A stretch of 64,000 nt of DNA, taken from contig NZ_JACJPL010000031.1 in NCBI RefSeq assembly GCF_014696065.1, forward strand, positions 434,001 to 498,000. Direction: 5' to 3'. This stretch comes from Leptolyngbya sp. FACHB-261 (GTDB lineage: Bacteria > Cyanobacteriota > Cyanobacteriia > FACHB-261). The notes beneath the pieces are model-generated. The model made no database searches and had not been told where the DNA came from. It was given only the letters and a program-made list of their open reading frames with translations. A program made the position numbers and the translations under genes. Positions 9,028-49,158 of the stretch are shown in pieces; within the stretch, counting starts at the first letter, position 1; the number at the start of each line of letters is the position of its first letter.

Positions 9028-9546
9028 ATGTTAGACGCATTCGCCAAGGTTGTTTCTCAGGCTGATGCCAAGGGCGAGTTCCTGAGCGGCGGCCAATTGG
9101 ATGCCCTGCAGCGCCTGGTCACAGATGGCAACAAGCGCTTGGACGTCGTCAACCGCATCACCGGCAACGCCTCGACCATCGTCGCTAACGCCGCCCGTGC
9201 TCTGTTTGCTGAGCAGCCTCAGCTGATCGCTCCTGGCGGTAATGCCTACACCAACCGCCGTGCGGCTGCTTGCTTGCGCGACATGGAAATCATCCTGCGC
9301 TACGTGACCTACGCAACGATCGCAGGTGATGCCAGTGTGCTGGATGATCGCTGCCTGAACGGTCTGCGTGAGACCTATCAAGCGCTGGGCGTACCCGGTG
9401 GTTCAGTGGCTGCTGGTGTGCAGAAGATGAAGGATGCTGCGATTGCCATCGCTAACGATCCCAACGGCATCACCAAGGGCGATTGCAACCAGTTGATGTC
9501 TGAAGTGGCTAGCTACTTCGATCGTGCTGCTGCCGCTGTTGCCTAA
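9028..9546 (+). CDS. cpcB: C-phycocyanin beta subunit
   Basis: 172 residues, the normal length of CpcB. It starts [19 protein letters not shown]. The two bilin-attachment cysteines are both present: the one in [14 protein letters not shown] (Cys-82/84 position) and the one in TKGDCNQLM (Cys-153/155 position). The conserved Asn that is methylated in beta subunits is in [10 protein letters not shown]. The protein forms alpha-beta hexamers that stack as phycobilisome rods and absorb red-orange light. The start has a clear TAGGAG site. Codon choice is strongly biased (CTG, CGC, GCT), as expected of a very highly expressed gene. The gene is first in the operon; cpcA follows after 52 bases. Confidence 0.98.
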
Positions 9547-9598
9547 CTTTTTTGACTGCCGTACAAGCGTACAAACTTGAAGGAAGATATCCAGCATT

Positions 9599-10087
9599 AT
9601 GAAGACCCCCATCACTGAAGCCATCGCAACCGCTGACACCCAGGGCCGTTTCCTCAGCAACGCTGAGCTGACCCAGGTCTATGGCCGCTACGAGCGTGCT
9701 GAAGCCGCTCTAGCTGCTGCTCGTCTGCTGACCGACAACGCTCAGCGCCTGATCGATGGTGCTGCCCAAGCTGTCTACCAAAAGTTCCCTTACACCACCC
9801 AGCAGCAAGGCTCTAACTTCGCCTCCAGCCCTGAAGGTAAGGCTAAGTGCGCTCGGGACATCGGTTACTACCTGCGGATCGTCACCTACAGCTTAGTTGC
9901 TGGTGGCACAGGTCCTCTGGATGAGTACCTGATCGCTGGTCTGTCTGAGATCAACCGCACCTTTGATCTATCCCCCAGCTGGTACATTGAAGCCCTCAAG
10001 TGGATCAAGGCCAACCACGGTGGTTCTGGTCAGCCTGCTGTTGAAGCCAACGCCTACATTGACTACGCAATCAACGCCCTGAGCTAG
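9599..10087 (+). CDS. cpcA: C-phycocyanin alpha subunit
   Basis: 162 residues, exactly the usual length. It begins [20 protein letters not shown]. The single chromophore cysteine lies in [19 protein letters not shown] (Cys-84). An AAGGAAG ribosome binding site lies about 12 bases upstream of the start codon. It pairs with CpcB. Its phycocyanobilin is expected to be attached by the CpcE/CpcF lyase encoded downstream. The distinct alpha subunit of phycoerythrocyanin cannot be told apart by one motif, but the presence of cpcEF and the absence of pecEF genes favour phycocyanin. A hairpin after the stop probably separates the abundant cpcBA message from the linker genes. Confidence 0.98.
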
Positions 10088-39813: not shown

Positions 39814-40494
39814 CTAGTAGCGAGACTCAGTACGGCTCACTTCGTTGGGATCGCGATAACGTGCTGGCTCCTCAGGACGACGGAGCAGACCAGCCAAACC
39901 GGACAGACCCAGCAAGCCTAGCCAACCCCAATCGAAGTCGCGGTCGCCTTCAGTGTTCGCGGTGGTGGGCGCAGGGGCAGGGCTAGCAGTGGTATCCGCC
40001 GCATCAGGGGAAGCAGTCGTGCCACCCGTGGTGTCTGGAGCCGTCGTGGTGCCTGTGGTGCCAGGAGCGGTCGTGGTGTCTGCGCCAGTTCCAGTTGTGC
40101 CCGGTGCCCCAGTCGAACCAGGGAAAGTCGTGCCTGTGCCTGTGCCTGTGCTGCCAGTACCGGTGCCGGTATCCGCGCCAGTGCCCGCACCCGTACCACC
40201 AGGAACCGTGGTGCCCGTGCTACCCGTACCACCCGGTGCAGTCGTGGTGCCAGTGCCGCCGGGAGCGGTAGTCGTGCCAGTGCCAGCGCCGGTGCCAGTA
40301 CCTGCACCAGTACCACCCGGAGCGGTAGTACCGGAGGTACCCGTGCCACCAGGTGCAGTGGTCGTGCCTGTGCCACCCGTGCCACCTGTACCGCCCGAAG
40401 ACTGAGCAGAAGCAGGCAGGGTTGAAGTCATAACACCCAAGCTTAAGGCAAGGACACTAGCCCCAAGCAATCTTGACCAGCCATAAATTTTCAT
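39814..40494 (-). CDS. WGxxGxxG-tail protein with Gly/Thr/Pro low-complexity repeats
   Basis: 226 residues from the ATG at 40494. A signal peptide (SVLALSLGVMTSTLPASAQ) is followed by about 110 residues of repeats such as TTAPGGTGTTTAPGGTGSTG. After a short acidic segment, the C-terminus has DFDWGWLGLLGLSGLAGLLRRPEEP, the W-G-x-x-G-x-x-G anchor typical of a cyanobacterial family, followed by an RYRDPNEVSRTE tail. It is probably attached to the membrane or outer layer by that helix and exposes the flexible repeats. A Ser/Thr kinase gene on the same strand begins about 2.3 kb away. Confidence 0.8.
   Translation of the reverse strand: MKIYGWSRLLGASVLALSLGVMTSTLPASAQSSGGTGGTGGTGTTTAPGGTGTSGTTAPGGTGAGTGTGAGTGTTTAPGGTGTTTAPGGTGSTGTTVPGGTGAGTGADTGTGTGSTGTGTGTTFPGSTGAPGTTGTGADTTTAPGTTGTTTAPDTTGGTTASPDAADTTASPAPAPTTANTEGDRDFDWGWLGLLGLSGLAGLLRRPEEPARYRDPNEVSRTESRY
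39990..40395 (-). repeat. Coding tandem repeats (Gly-Thr/Ala-Pro rich)
   Basis: GGTGCGGGT- and ACGACTGCA-like units repeat across this section. They encode T-A-P-G-G-T-G modules of the WGxxGxxG protein. Confidence 0.75.
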
Positions 40495-40839
40495 CGTCGA
40501 ACTTCCTCTCTGAGTTGAATGATTTAGAAAATCTCTAAGGTAGACACGCGCTTCTGAAAATTGCGCGTCACTTTTAGCAGCGCATATCGCTACCAAGCTA
40601 AAGATTTACTGCAACAGCAGAATCAATCTAGGGAAGTAAAGCGTATCTAAAGAGGCTCTATCAAAGGGGAGACTAAAAAATTAGAGCAAATGTGATCAGG
40701 AACGCGCTCATTTTTTCAGCTATTGCTGAGCAGAACCCTTGCATAAACATTCGATTAACGAATCCCAATATTAAAGGATATTCAGTTGCGACGGCTCGGC
40801 CCAACTACAGTCAAACGCTACAGCTGTTCTTCGCGGTTC

Positions 40840-43729: not shown

Positions 43730-44013
43730 AATCACTCCTCAGCCAGCAACTTCTCAGCAAGCAACACAAGCCGCTCAAAAACCTCCATATATATCCCTTT
43801 CCTACTCAGCTCGACTTGATGGGGAAGGGATGTGTTTTGTATGGAATTCCAGTTTAGGGATCAAGTCAGTCATACTCGGTCATCGGATAGATCCCAGACA
43901 CCATAAGTACATTGTAAAGTTCTGTTAAGCGCGAAGTGCCAACTTGCTTTGGGCTTAAAAATCTGCGTATCCAAGAACTTACGAACTCAAATTAATTCGT
44001 CTGGAGATTTGCT

Positions 44014-44703
44014 GTGACACAATTCTGGCTCTGGATAGGGGTCATCGGTATGGCCTCAGGATCCATCTTCTTTGGCGTTGGTGCCCACAACGCCAAGAAA
44101 GAATCTTGGAGGGCGATTTTTATTCTTAACTTCTTCATCACTGCCATCGCTTCTGCACTCTATTTAGCGATGGCCCTAGGACAGGGGGTTAATGTTATTC
44201 AAGATCGCACAACCTATTGGGTTCGCTATGTCACCTGGTTCTTATCAACACCATTGCTACTTTTAGATCTTGCTTATCTGGGACGCACGAGCGTGCCCCT
44301 TGTAGGCAGCCTGCTGGGTGCCAATGCTTACATGATTGCGACCGGTTTTGTGGCAACTATTTCACCAAAACCGATTAATTACATCTGGTACCTGGTTAGC
44401 TGCGGCGCTTACTTAGCGATTATTTATCTACTGGTTAAACCCTATCGCTTAGAAGCTGAACGGAAACTGCCGGGAATGGCGGGTGCCTTTCGTCGGTTGG
44501 TCACAGTCCATCTTGTGCTTTGGACTGGCTATCCTCTAGTTTGGATTCTGGGCAACACTGGCTTTAACCTGATCAGTGGTGGGGTTGAGACCATGCTTTA
44601 CACGTCGCTCGACCTCGCATCTAAAGTTGGCTTTGGTTTACTCTCGCTTAACACGCTGCACACACTAGAGCAGGTGCGTGAACCTCAATTGGTTAGGAGA
44701 TAA
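44014..44703 (+). CDS. Microbial rhodopsin with TSD motif, cyanobacterial halorhodopsin-type anion pump
   Basis: 229 residues with a GTG start and CTGGAG site 7 bases upstream. Seven helices are visible. The helix-C phrase VRYVTWFLSTPLLLLDLAYL aligns with bacteriorhodopsin RYADWLFTTPLLLLDLALL. Bacteriorhodopsin Asp85, Thr89 and Asp96 thus become Thr74, Ser78 and Asp85, the TSD motif. Arg71, Asp200 and the retinal Lys204 (SLDLASKVGFG) are retained, and helix F has WTGYPLVWILG. TSD is known from the cyanobacterial chloride pump of Mastigocladopsis repens (MrHR) and from SyHR, which also moves sulfate. Prediction: light-driven inward Cl- transport. The loss of the Asp85 proton acceptor argues against a proton pump. 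No retinal-synthesis gene is adjacent. Confidence 0.93.
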   Translation: MTQFWLWIGVIGMASGSIFFGVGAHNAKKESWRAIFILNFFITAIASALYLAMALGQGVNVIQDRTTYWVRYVTWFLSTPLLLLDLAYLGRTSVPLVGSLLGANAYMIATGFVATISPKPINYIWYLVSCGAYLAIIYLLVKPYRLEAERKLPGMAGAFRRLVTVHLVLWTGYPLVWILGNTGFNLISGGVETMLYTSLDLASKVGFGLLSLNTLHTLEQVREPQLVRR

Positions 44704-45492: not shown

Positions 45493-46779
45493 TTGAATAT
45501 TTTCACTACGCTCGATCGTCGCCAGCGTCGGAACCTGGGAGTTCTGTTTACTGCAGGTTTATTGTTCTGGTCTAGCCTAGCTTCGCTACTGCCGGTCTTG
45601 CCGCTTTACCTTCGGGATTTAGGTGGTTCTGAGCAGCAAATTGGTCTAGTTATGGGGGCTTTTGCAGTCGGCGTCCTGCTCTGCCGCGCCTGGGTGGGCC
45701 GGTTGGCCGATCAGCGCAGTCGCAAACTGGCTCTGCTCCTGGGACTGCTAGCGGCCACCATCGCGCCCCTGTGCTACATCGTGGTCAAGACGATGCCATT
45801 GATGGGGTTGAGCCGTGCCCTACATGGCATTAGCATTGCCGCTTTCACAACCGGCTACAGCGCGCTGGTGGTGGACCTCTCACCGGAGCGCAACCGAGGT
45901 GAATTGATCGGCTATATGAGCTTAGTCAATCCTTTAGGCATGGCTATTGGTCCAGCGTTGGGTGGATTTTTGGAAGCCTGGACAGGCTACACACCACTGT
46001 TTCTGCTGTCGGCAGGTTTGGGCTTGGTAGGGCTAGTATGTACCTGGCAGGTTGAGGAGCAACCTCTAGCGCCTAGCATCGCTTTAGATTCAGCCGCAAC
46101 CTCAAGCAAACAGTTTTGGCGGTTGCTGACTAGTCCTCGCGTTCGGATTCCCGCTCTGGTCATGCTCATGGTTGGGCTTGTTTTTGGAGCCCTGAGCACC
46201 TATGTCCCGCTGTTTATTGAGCAGGAACAAGTGAGTTTGAATGCAGGGCTGTTCTACACAGCTATCGCCATTGGTAGCTTTGTAGTGCGTTTTATCACGG
46301 GTCGAGCCTCCGACCGTCATGGGCGTGGGCTGTTTATCAGCCTCAGTTTGGTGTGTTATGCCCTGTCTATGCTGCTGCTCTCACTGGCTAACAGTGCCGA
46401 GGCTTTTCTAATCGCGGGGACTGTGGAAGGGTTAGGGGCAGGTATCCTGTTGCCGACTATGAGCGCTCTAGTCGCTGACCGGGCTAGTCCTTTGGAGCGG
46501 GCGCGGCTGTTCAGTTTGTGTATTGGTGGCTTTGACTTAGGCATTGCGCTCGCTGGACCCTTGTTGGGGACCGTGGCCGCGCAGGCCAGCTTCCGAGCCA
46601 TGTTCGCTTTGGCAGCGACCCTAGCGGGGGCAGCTCTGCTGATCTTCATGACTCAGGCGGGCAAGGATCTGCGCCATTCGCTCCGGTTTGCACTGGGTCG
46701 CGGCCAAGATGTCTATGCTTACCAAGCGCCTGAACCTGAATTGGTACTGGGGCAGTCTCAACCATTGAGCCGCCATTGA
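45493..46779 (+). CDS. Major facilitator superfamily transporter
   Basis: 428 residues with a TTG start. MFS marks are VLPLYLRDLGGSEQQIGLV, the loop GRLADQRSRKLALLLGL and RALHGISIAAFTTGYSALVV in the N-half, and GRASDRHGRGLFISLSLVCY in the C-half. Twelve helices are likely. Its type is that of multidrug or sugar efflux transporters of unknown substrate. The stop is about 55 bases before the egtC start, so the two may be in one transcript. Confidence 0.88.
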   Translation: MNIFTTLDRRQRRNLGVLFTAGLLFWSSLASLLPVLPLYLRDLGGSEQQIGLVMGAFAVGVLLCRAWVGRLADQRSRKLALLLGLLAATIAPLCYIVVKTMPLMGLSRALHGISIAAFTTGYSALVVDLSPERNRGELIGYMSLVNPLGMAIGPALGGFLEAWTGYTPLFLLSAGLGLVGLVCTWQVEEQPLAPSIALDSAATSSKQFWRLLTSPRVRIPALVMLMVGLVFGALSTYVPLFIEQEQVSLNAGLFYTAIAIGSFVVRFITGRASDRHGRGLFISLSLVCYALSMLLLSLANSAEAFLIAGTVEGLGAGILLPTMSALVADRASPLERARLFSLCIGGFDLGIALAGPLLGTVAAQASFRAMFALAATLAGAALLIFMTQAGKDLRHSLRFALGRGQDVYAYQAPEPELVLGQSQPLSRH

Positions 46780-46832
46780 CTTTTGATAGTCTTCAGTTTG
46801 CTCGGCTGTCCAATTTATTTTTTAGGCTTTTT

Positions 46833-47603
46833 ATGTGTCGTCTGACTGCCTATCTAGGGCCCGCGGTTTCGCTGGGAAAACTTTTGTTGGAGCCGGAGCA
46901 TTCGCTATTGGTTCAGAGCTACAAACCGCAAGAAATGGCCAATGCTGTGGTCAATGCAGATGGTTTTGGTGTGGGCTGGTATCACCCTCAACGGCAAATA
47001 CCTCCCTGTGTCTACACCAACATCATACCCATGTGGAATGACATCAACTTCCCCAATCTAGGAACTTACCTGGAGTCTAGCTGTATCTTGGCCAACGTGC
47101 GCAGTGCTACCACGGGCATCGCTGTTGACCAGAGCAATTGCCAGCCGTTTCGCTATGACAATCTGCTGTTTACTCACAATGGCTACATTACCAACTTTCG
47201 CAAGACATTAATGCGGCCTATCCGTGACAGTCTGAGCGACGAATACTACCAAGCCATTCAAGGCACCAGCGATTCAGAACATATCTTTGCGCTGTTTTTG
47301 AATTATTGGCAACAGTCGCAACTGAGTTTGGTCGAAGCCCTGGATAAAACGGTACAGCAGCTAGTGGCTTGGGCAGGAGATTCGGTAGGTCTGGCTCTCA
47401 ACTTGCTGGTCACTGATGGCAACCAGGTGGCAGGGGTTCGGACCAACCATCAGGCCAGCAGTCCCTCCCTGTATTGGCAGCAGGGAGAAGCGGCATTGAT
47501 TGCCTCAGAACCTCTGTCTCCAGAGCAAGCTTGGTCCCCTTGCCCAGACCATCATTTGTTGAGTGTTAATCGCTCAGGTCAATTTCAGTTTGAAGCACTC
47601 TGA
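46833..47603 (+). CDS. egtC: Ergothioneine biosynthesis amidohydrolase EgtC (class II glutamine amidotransferase fold)
   Basis: 256 residues from the ATG at 46833, because maturation would expose Cys2 (MCRLTAYLG) as the N-terminal nucleophile. NADGFGVGWYHPQRQ, NVRSATTGIAV and FTHNGYITNFRKT are typical of EgtC and not of Gln-dependent synthases. It removes the gamma-glutamyl group from gamma-glutamyl-hercynylcysteine sulfoxide. It therefore implies an EgtB that uses gamma-glutamylcysteine, and an EgtB-like gene does follow downstream. A hairpin terminator stands between the two genes. Confidence 0.87.
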   Translation: MCRLTAYLGPAVSLGKLLLEPEHSLLVQSYKPQEMANAVVNADGFGVGWYHPQRQIPPCVYTNIIPMWNDINFPNLGTYLESSCILANVRSATTGIAVDQSNCQPFRYDNLLFTHNGYITNFRKTLMRPIRDSLSDEYYQAIQGTSDSEHIFALFLNYWQQSQLSLVEALDKTVQQLVAWAGDSVGLALNLLVTDGNQVAGVRTNHQASSPSLYWQQGEAALIASEPLSPEQAWSPCPDHHLLSVNRSGQFQFEAL

Positions 47604-47643
47604 TTTAGGTGCTTCAGCTACGGGTTAGCTAAAAACTTTACAA

Positions 47644-47670
47644 CTCAGGGGCGGTGGACCAGCCCCTGAG
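47644..47670 (+). terminator. Hairpin terminator after egtC
   Basis: CTCAGGGGC (47644-47652) pairs with GCCCCTGAG (47662-47670), followed by CTGTTT. It stands about 40 bases after the egtC stop. Confidence 0.7.
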
Positions 47671-47988
47671 CTGTTTCACCCATAAGAAAATTAAATTAGA
47701 GGTTTGAGCTAATTTCTCATCTATTTCTAAGCTTTTCATCCAATGTTTTTAGGTAGTCTGAGTTCAATACCAATGGAGCAGAGAGCTTAAGTTCCCATAT
47801 CGCCAGTTTTGCCTTCTAGAAAACCCAGTAATCCTAGGGGGATTGCAGAGTTTTCTTTGATATAGAAGATTCTGATTATGAAGCGATAGTCAGTACAAAA
47901 TTAGGGTTTACAGTAGAATTTTTTAAGTAAGGCAGGCGTGACTTAATGCTCATGCTTGCTTAATCTCTATCAAGTTATACCCCCGCTG
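47671..47988. promoter_or_regulatory. Upstream region of egtB
   Basis: About 320 bases without a gene between the egtC terminator and egtB. A-T rich runs near 47880-47920 (TTAGGGTTTACAGTAGAATTTTTTAAG) may hold the egtB promoter. I see no clean -35/-10 pair. Confidence 0.35.
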
Positions 47989-49158
47989 ATGAATCACACC
48001 CTGAGCCCTAATGCTCCGCCACTCTCAGCCCAGCAATCGCATCTGAAAGCGGCAATTCAGGCAGAGCTAACCCAGACCCGAGTCCATACTTTAAGCCTGT
48101 TTGACGCTATTGATGAGCAAGATTTTTGCAGACAATTTCACCCAGATTTCAGTCCCGTGGGTTGGCATCTAGGCCACATTGGTTATACCGAAGCTTTTTG
48201 GCTGCTAGGGCAATGCCAGGGCGAAACAGCATTGGTTCAGGAGTACGAACCAATCTTTTCGGCGGTGCAATCAGTCAAGCATGAGCGAATCTATTTGCCG
48301 CCCCGCTCAGACATTCTGGACTATCTCAGCCGAGTGCAAGAGGCTAGCTTGCAGTTATTGCACAGCACTAACTTCGATCCTGAGCACTGGTTGTTGCGCC
48401 GAGCCCAGGTGTTTTACCAGGTTTTGCAGCACGAATACCAGCACAGCGAAACGGTTGTGATTGTGCAGCGCTTGATGGGTCAGCGAGGGCTAGGGCCTCA
48501 GTTTGTGTCCCCAAGTGCGCCTGCCGCACCCCTACACATCCCTGCTGGGACCCTAGAAATGGGCGATGAAGGTCCTAGAGCTTACGACAACGAGCATCCT
48601 ATTCACCCGGTGTCCGTCAAAGAGTTCTGGATTGACGCGGCACCTGTGAGCGTTGAACAATATGCTTGCTTCATTAAGGCCGGGGGATACCAGCAGCCTT
48701 GGCTATGGTCCGAGGATGGCTGGGCCTGGCGGGAAGCACACAGCATTCAGGCGCCGCTGTGCTGGTCTGAGCAGAAATTAGAGGCACCCCTCTGCCATGT
48801 CAGCGCCTATGAGGCAGAAGCCTATGCTCGCTGGGTGGGCAAACGCTTACCGACTGAAGCAGAGTGGGAGCAAGCCGCGCGGACTGGCTTACAGGATATC
48901 GGTGCGGTTTGGGAATGGACCGCGAGCACCTTCACCCCCTATCCTGGTTTCCGGCCCTATCCCTACGCTGGCTACTCAGCTGCTTACTTTGATGGACAGC
49001 ATCGCGTATTACGCGGCGGATCTTGGGCTACGGCTCGGCCCTTGGTCCGGGCCTCATTCCGTAACTGGTATCACCCTTGGGTTAGGCAAATTTTTGCAGG
49101 CTTTCGCTGTGTCTCGTCTAGTTGCCCTGATTCTGAGGGGCAATGTTCCAAACAGTGA
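47989..49158 (+). CDS. egtB: Ergothioneine-type sulfoxide synthase EgtB-like (DinB_2 plus FGE-sulfatase domains)
   Basis: 389 residues from the ATG at 47989 (the frame is open 11 codons further). The N-terminal DinB-like domain holds the iron ligand motif: His60 and His63 in GWHLGHI, and HEYQHSE with His148, His152 and Glu154 (HX3HXE). The C-terminal formylglycine-generating-enzyme-like domain (about 185-380) shows RLPTEAEWEQAART, GAVWEWTAST, RVLRGGSWAT and RNWYHPWVRQIFAGFRC. EgtB oxidatively couples hercynine with a thiol. The thiol here would be gamma-glutamylcysteine, given EgtC. The methyltransferase EgtD is not in this window. Some cyanobacterial homologues have OvoA-like activity, so regiochemistry is not certain. 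Confidence 0.87.
   Translation: MNHTLSPNAPPLSAQQSHLKAAIQAELTQTRVHTLSLFDAIDEQDFCRQFHPDFSPVGWHLGHIGYTEAFWLLGQCQGETALVQEYEPIFSAVQSVKHERIYLPPRSDILDYLSRVQEASLQLLHSTNFDPEHWLLRRAQVFYQVLQHEYQHSETVVIVQRLMGQRGLGPQFVSPSAPAAPLHIPAGTLEMGDEGPRAYDNEHPIHPVSVKEFWIDAAPVSVEQYACFIKAGGYQQPWLWSEDGWAWREAHSIQAPLCWSEQKLEAPLCHVSAYEAEAYARWVGKRLPTEAEWEQAARTGLQDIGAVWEWTASTFTPYPGFRPYPYAGYSAAYFDGQHRVLRGGSWATARPLVRASFRNWYHPWVRQIFAGFRCVSSSCPDSEGQCSKQ

Follow-up and report, generated by a model that had tools for sequence, protein, structure and literature searches.

A cyanobacterial halorhodopsin in Leptolyngbya sp. FACHB-261: a predicted light-driven anion pump with threonine at residue 182

The genome of Leptolyngbya sp. 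FACHB-261 carries a gene that, judged from its sequence, is a further member of the known cyanobacterial halorhodopsins (CyHRs), which take up chloride with the energy of light, and ordinary within that family. It lies on the forward strand of the window, i.e., the whole stretch of 64,000 nucleotides that was analysed. We put the probability that the encoded protein is a light-driven inward anion pump at about 0.93, a figure that does not extend to sulfate. The sequence-only reading had proposed an anion-pumping halorhodopsin of the TSD type, and this interpretation is supported here, with anion transport predicted from family membership.

Gene and coding sequence

The open reading frame comprises 229 codons from a GTG start to a TAA stop. 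The features of the gene are the following (positions in the window):

44014..44703, + strand: CyHR gene, type-1 rhodopsin of 229 amino acids (PF01036, 1.3e-52; 72% identity to MrHR)
44003..44007, + strand: GGAGA, resembling a ribosome-binding site, 6 bases 5' of the GTG (read directly)
44224..44226, + strand: Arg71 codon (bacteriorhodopsin Arg82), the anion-site arginine, also present in the CyHR alignment rows
44233..44268, + strand: helix-C motif Thr74-Ser78-Asp85 (TSD), found in 24 of 50 CyHR rows
44509..44511, + strand: His166 codon, the family-specific histidine on the cytoplasmic release path (role: PMC9617919, PMC11995866)
44557..44559, + strand: Thr182 codon, anion entrance (SyHR Thr183, MrHR Glu182; role: PMC9525653, PMC9617919)
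44611..44613, + strand: Asp200 codon (bacteriorhodopsin Asp212), from the alignment
44623..44625, + strand: Lys204 codon, retinal Schiff-base lysine (bacteriorhodopsin Lys216), from the alignment

Arg71, Thr74, Ser78, Asp85, Asp200 and Lys204 all stand at the numbers that the sequence-only reading had assigned to them. Thr182, the residue bearing on sulfate, had been overlooked. The Pfam profile PF01036 (Bac_rhodopsin) matches residues 2-217. In comparisons with two relatives, changes affect 33-34 of the 210 second codon positions, against 134-137 third positions. Since the changes concentrate at third positions, the reading frame is under purifying selection at the protein level.

Family membership and predicted structure

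By phmmer, the protein matches MrHR of Mastigocladopsis repens with an E-value of about 1e-106 (72% identity, gapless alignment) and SyHR of Synechocystis sp. PCC 7509 with 2.6e-99 (68% identity, near-gapless alignment), while the match to cyanorhodopsin 6lm0 is far weaker (5.6e-54). The E-values to MrHR and SyHR, together with the codon-position pattern, exclude a chance resemblance. In a tree of 81 opsins, the protein falls into one clade with MrHR and SyHR (support 100/99), apart from the cyanorhodopsins, the ASR-type xenorhodopsins and the xanthorhodopsin-like proteins. A narrower tree, with 50 CyHRs and six cyanorhodopsins, supports the CyHR clade that includes it at 100/100; placement outside this clade was the outcome that had been named in advance as fatal to the halorhodopsin proposal. 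The characters of the family are likewise present: the helix-C motif TS(D/V/L/I) as T74-S78-D85, the clade-specific helix-F histidine (H166/H167) as H166, and the retinal lysine and Schiff-base aspartate of helix G as K204 and D200. The alignment also shows that N39, the partner of D85, and E192 are kept. The protein does not qualify as a cyanorhodopsin, with Thr74 at the acceptor position and a placement outside the cyanorhodopsin clade in both trees.

The AlphaFold2 model (pLDDT 83.2, pTM 0.80) predicts the seven-helix fold of MrHR and SyHR, with a BC hairpin. Its six best PDB matches are all MrHR or SyHR entries (TM 0.92-0.95, rmsd 1.0-1.2), among them MrHR 6xl3 (TM 0.95, rmsd 1.1) and SyHR 7zoy (TM 0.95, rmsd 1.0).

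Comparison with characterized rhodopsins and proposed mechanism

MrHR (PDB 6k6i, 6xl3) has the TSD motif, R71, H166, E192, D200, K204, I136, P118 and V59 in common with the FACHB-261 protein, but carries Glu182 and N63-G64 instead of Thr182 and Q63-D64. SyHR (PDB 7zou, 7zoy) shares the TSD motif, the threonine at the 182/183 gate and the LGNTGFN segment, whereas it has R59, A63, G64, A118 and T137 in place of V59, Q63, D64, P118 and I136, and a more basic cytoplasmic end of helix F. Cyanorhodopsins (PDB 6lm0, 6lm1), which are outward proton pumps, form a related cyanobacterial family whose fold aligns with the model at TM 0.85-0.90, yet they are only about 40% identical, and rows of this type carry Asp for Thr74 and Leu for His166. 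According to their description in the literature, the archaeal halorhodopsins HsHR and NpHR (TSA) also have Thr-Ser at the Schiff base and pump chloride inward, but differ in Ala for Asp85 (PMC9617919) and Thr for His166 (PMC11995866).

In MrHR and SyHR, the anion resides beside T74, S78 and R71 near the protonated Schiff base; upon isomerization it shifts to the helix-F histidine, which provides a transient site, and is then released to the cytoplasm, while another anion comes in from outside (PMC9617919, PMC11995866). The residues of this path are all conserved in the FACHB-261 protein. Because all the mechanistic residues tested are present, inward light-driven pumping with chloride as the main substrate is the best reading of the sequence. 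Chloride would be held by Arg71, Thr74 and Ser78 near the protonated Schiff base, with Thr74 taking the place of the proton-accepting Asp of bacteriorhodopsin. Light would isomerize the retinal bound to Lys204, upon which chloride would pass the Schiff base towards the region of His166 and on to the cytoplasm, while a fresh anion would enter from outside past the gate at residue 182. The net result would be anion import driven by light and a cell interior that becomes more negative.

Retinal supply, host genome and gene neighbourhood

That retinal-synthesis genes are not adjacent to the opsin had been noted before and agrees with the genome, in which contig C15 carries the carotenoid oxygenase genes and contig C31 the window. 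The genome search for a carotenoid oxygenase that the sequence-only reading had suggested yielded a retinal-forming enzyme, namely an ortholog of the Synechocystis apocarotenoid-15,15'-oxygenase (ACO/Diox1; PDB 2biw, 7.6e-179), which is the predicted retinal source; a second, more distant carotenoid oxygenase is found on the same contig. An ACO/Diox1 in the host is expected, as diox1 was found in 152 of the 154 cyanobacterial genomes examined in PMC7541481. Searches for a retinal enzyme of the Blh/BCD type gave zero matches in the host genome and likewise zero in the control genomes, so that they do not establish its absence, a question that the ACO/Diox1 ortholog makes moot. The phycobilisome background presumed earlier is borne out by many proteins of phycobilisome families in the genome, two of which are encoded within the window, near 9046-10081.

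The host encodes a second opsin (G000:C28:92215-92904; L001 1441-2163, - strand), which is of the type of Anabaena sensory rhodopsin (ASR), being very close to it (ASR match 3.7e-111), and has a DTS motif and Pro replacing bacteriorhodopsin Asp212. A response-regulator gene lies near it. The host represents an isolated cyanobacterial lineage, as no other genome in the set compared belongs to its order. Most of its nearest relatives in that set lack an opsin, which occurs in six of these 39 genomes, the host counted.

The CyHR gene stands alone. Its neighbours encode a SIMPL/DUF541 protein, a 185-aa protein without a family match, an MFS transporter, EgtC and an EgtB-like protein. None of these genes has a counterpart near ten other CyHR loci, so that an operon or genomic-island context was rejected and the neighbours are uninformative on the function of the opsin. 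Carriage by phages was also rejected, with no match among 50,697 phage records. Downstream, at 46776-49158 in the window, the ergothioneine genes comprise an EgtC above its curated cut-off and the EgtB-like protein, which reaches neither the cut-off of EgtB nor that of the selenoneine synthase SenA. Elsewhere in the window (39814-40596, - strand), a gene adjoining a Ser/Thr kinase-TPR gene encodes a protein in which Gly, Thr and Pro make up a long low-complexity repeat (GTGTTTAPGGTG) and arginines follow a hydrophobic stretch at the C-terminus.

Relatives on plasmids are all less than 45% identical to the FACHB-261 protein. The opsin of the Deinococcus aetherius plasmid pDAETH-2 (L112 583-1320; 44.5% identity) combines the helix-C motif T-T-Q with Asn at the position of His166 and Ser at 182; with the acceptor Asp thus lost outside the cyanobacteria too, it is possibly another type of anion pump. 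Unusual helix-C motifs (TTG, TTV and SSI) also occur in cyanobacterial opsins: L102 (G745:C383:2819-3490), L053 (G556:C58) and L051/L052 (G467, G479).

Diversity at residue 182

Mutagenesis has identified residue 182 as a sulfate switch, with the Glu of MrHR blocking and the Thr of SyHR permitting (PMC9525653, PMC9617919), and a non-acidic residue at this position as a prerequisite for sulfate pumping by MrHR (PMC9525653). One of these two mutagenesis papers (PMC9525653, PMC9617919) states that Thr at the gate is found in SyHR only. In the FACHB-261 protein, Thr182 lies within LGNTGFN, a string identical to that of SyHR. Relatives were gathered from one contig scan, three whole-genome sets and extra stretches, and 50 distinct CyHR sequences were chosen by the helix-F histidine of the family. 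Residue 182 is Thr in 35 of them, Ser in two, Ala in two and Glu in 11, i.e., neutral in 39 of 50, a ratio that does not equal a frequency of independent events, several rows being closely related. A neutral residue is thus the usual state of CyHRs, and the SyHR-only statement on Thr fails for the family at large.

The 11 Glu182 rows are MrHR, the genes of Scytonema, Hassallia and Spirirestis, and the genes of family f7. In a tree built without column 182, a single branch (support 86/82) sets them apart, which amounts to one change, and Glu182 is confined to one Nostocales-type group among the 50 CyHRs. The CyHR tree lacks a resolved backbone: an alternative in which the neutral-182 rows all form a single clade is not rejected (p-AU 0.49), and the tree therefore gives no order for Glu and Thr. 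Joining the FACHB-261 protein to the MrHR group (p-AU 0.49) or to the SyHR group (p-AU 0.37) is not rejected either, so that its selectivity does not follow from its position in the tree.

Alternative functions and anion selectivity

A proton pump directed outward, as in the cyanorhodopsins, would fit the retention of Asp85 at the position of bacteriorhodopsin Asp96, and the T74D mutation turns MrHR into a proton pump according to earlier work cited in PMC9617919; given Thr instead of Asp at the acceptor position and a placement outside the cyanorhodopsins with full support, however, we consider its probability next to negligible. Hardly more credible is a light sensor, a role proposed for other cyanobacterial opsins of the ASR type, one of which the host carries: the pump residues are retained, no transducer gene adjoins the CyHR gene, and a search of the host genome for the ASR transducer (ASRT) found none, while one control genome was positive. 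A decaying or unexpressed gene would fit an orphan that shares no neighbours with other CyHR loci, and a promoter scan that gave no convincing site on the + strand. Broken CyHR-like copies do exist in other genomes, interrupted by stops or frame changes (G508:C1:2030796-2031427, G544:C125:2255-2912 and G489:C1:5303756-5304455), which suggests that cells can do without the pump and that its gene decays at times. Nevertheless, the intact frame, the ribosome-binding site, the preserved key residues and the strong bias of changes to third positions make a decaying or unexpressed state very unlikely for the present gene.

Within the favoured reading of an inward anion pump, it is our judgement, not a computed value, that the odds of sulfate being carried as well are about even; it may be carried because residue 182 is Thr. 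The competing view, which concerns sulfate only, is that the protein transports halides alone like MrHR and that Thr182 has no practical effect on sulfate. It comes just short of an even chance. By identity (72%), MrHR is the closest characterized relative, and the E182T mutation alone raised the relative sulfate activity of MrHR only modestly, to 0.092 of that for chloride (PMC9525653). Apart from the non-acidic gate, the features of SyHR-like sulfate pumpers (Ala63, Ala118, a basic helix-F end and Thr at 136/137) are absent, the protein having Q63, P118, I136 and G157. Positions 59/63/118/136 read V/Q/P/I, compared with R/A/A/T in SyHR and V/N/P/I in MrHR, and the cytoplasmic start of helix F (AERKLPGMAGAFRR) contains fewer basic residues than in SyHR. 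Asp64 places an extra negative charge in the BC loop adjoining position 63; it occurs in 32 of 50 CyHRs, together with Thr182 as well as with Glu182. Against a halide-only pump speak the absence at 182 of the negative charge that has been identified as the block to sulfate, and the LGNTGFN segment, which is the same as in SyHR.

Implications for the family

The gene adds one CyHR to the several dozen already known, 31 of which are tabulated in PMC11528372. Since residue 182 is neutral in most CyHRs surveyed, sulfate pumping may be widespread among them. A more far-reaching and tentative proposal, which we consider possible but rather less probable than not, is that import of sulfate or other polyatomic anions is common and perhaps ancestral in CyHRs, that Glu182, as seen in MrHR, marks one Nostocales-type group, and that the FACHB-261 protein naturally pumps both chloride and sulfate, its gate being MrHR-like in other respects. 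The survey makes the rarity or generality of sulfate pumping testable with a few wild-type CyHR genes. The FACHB-261 protein, with the Thr gate of SyHR in largely MrHR-like surroundings, resembles the E182T mutant of MrHR and is as such a natural test object.
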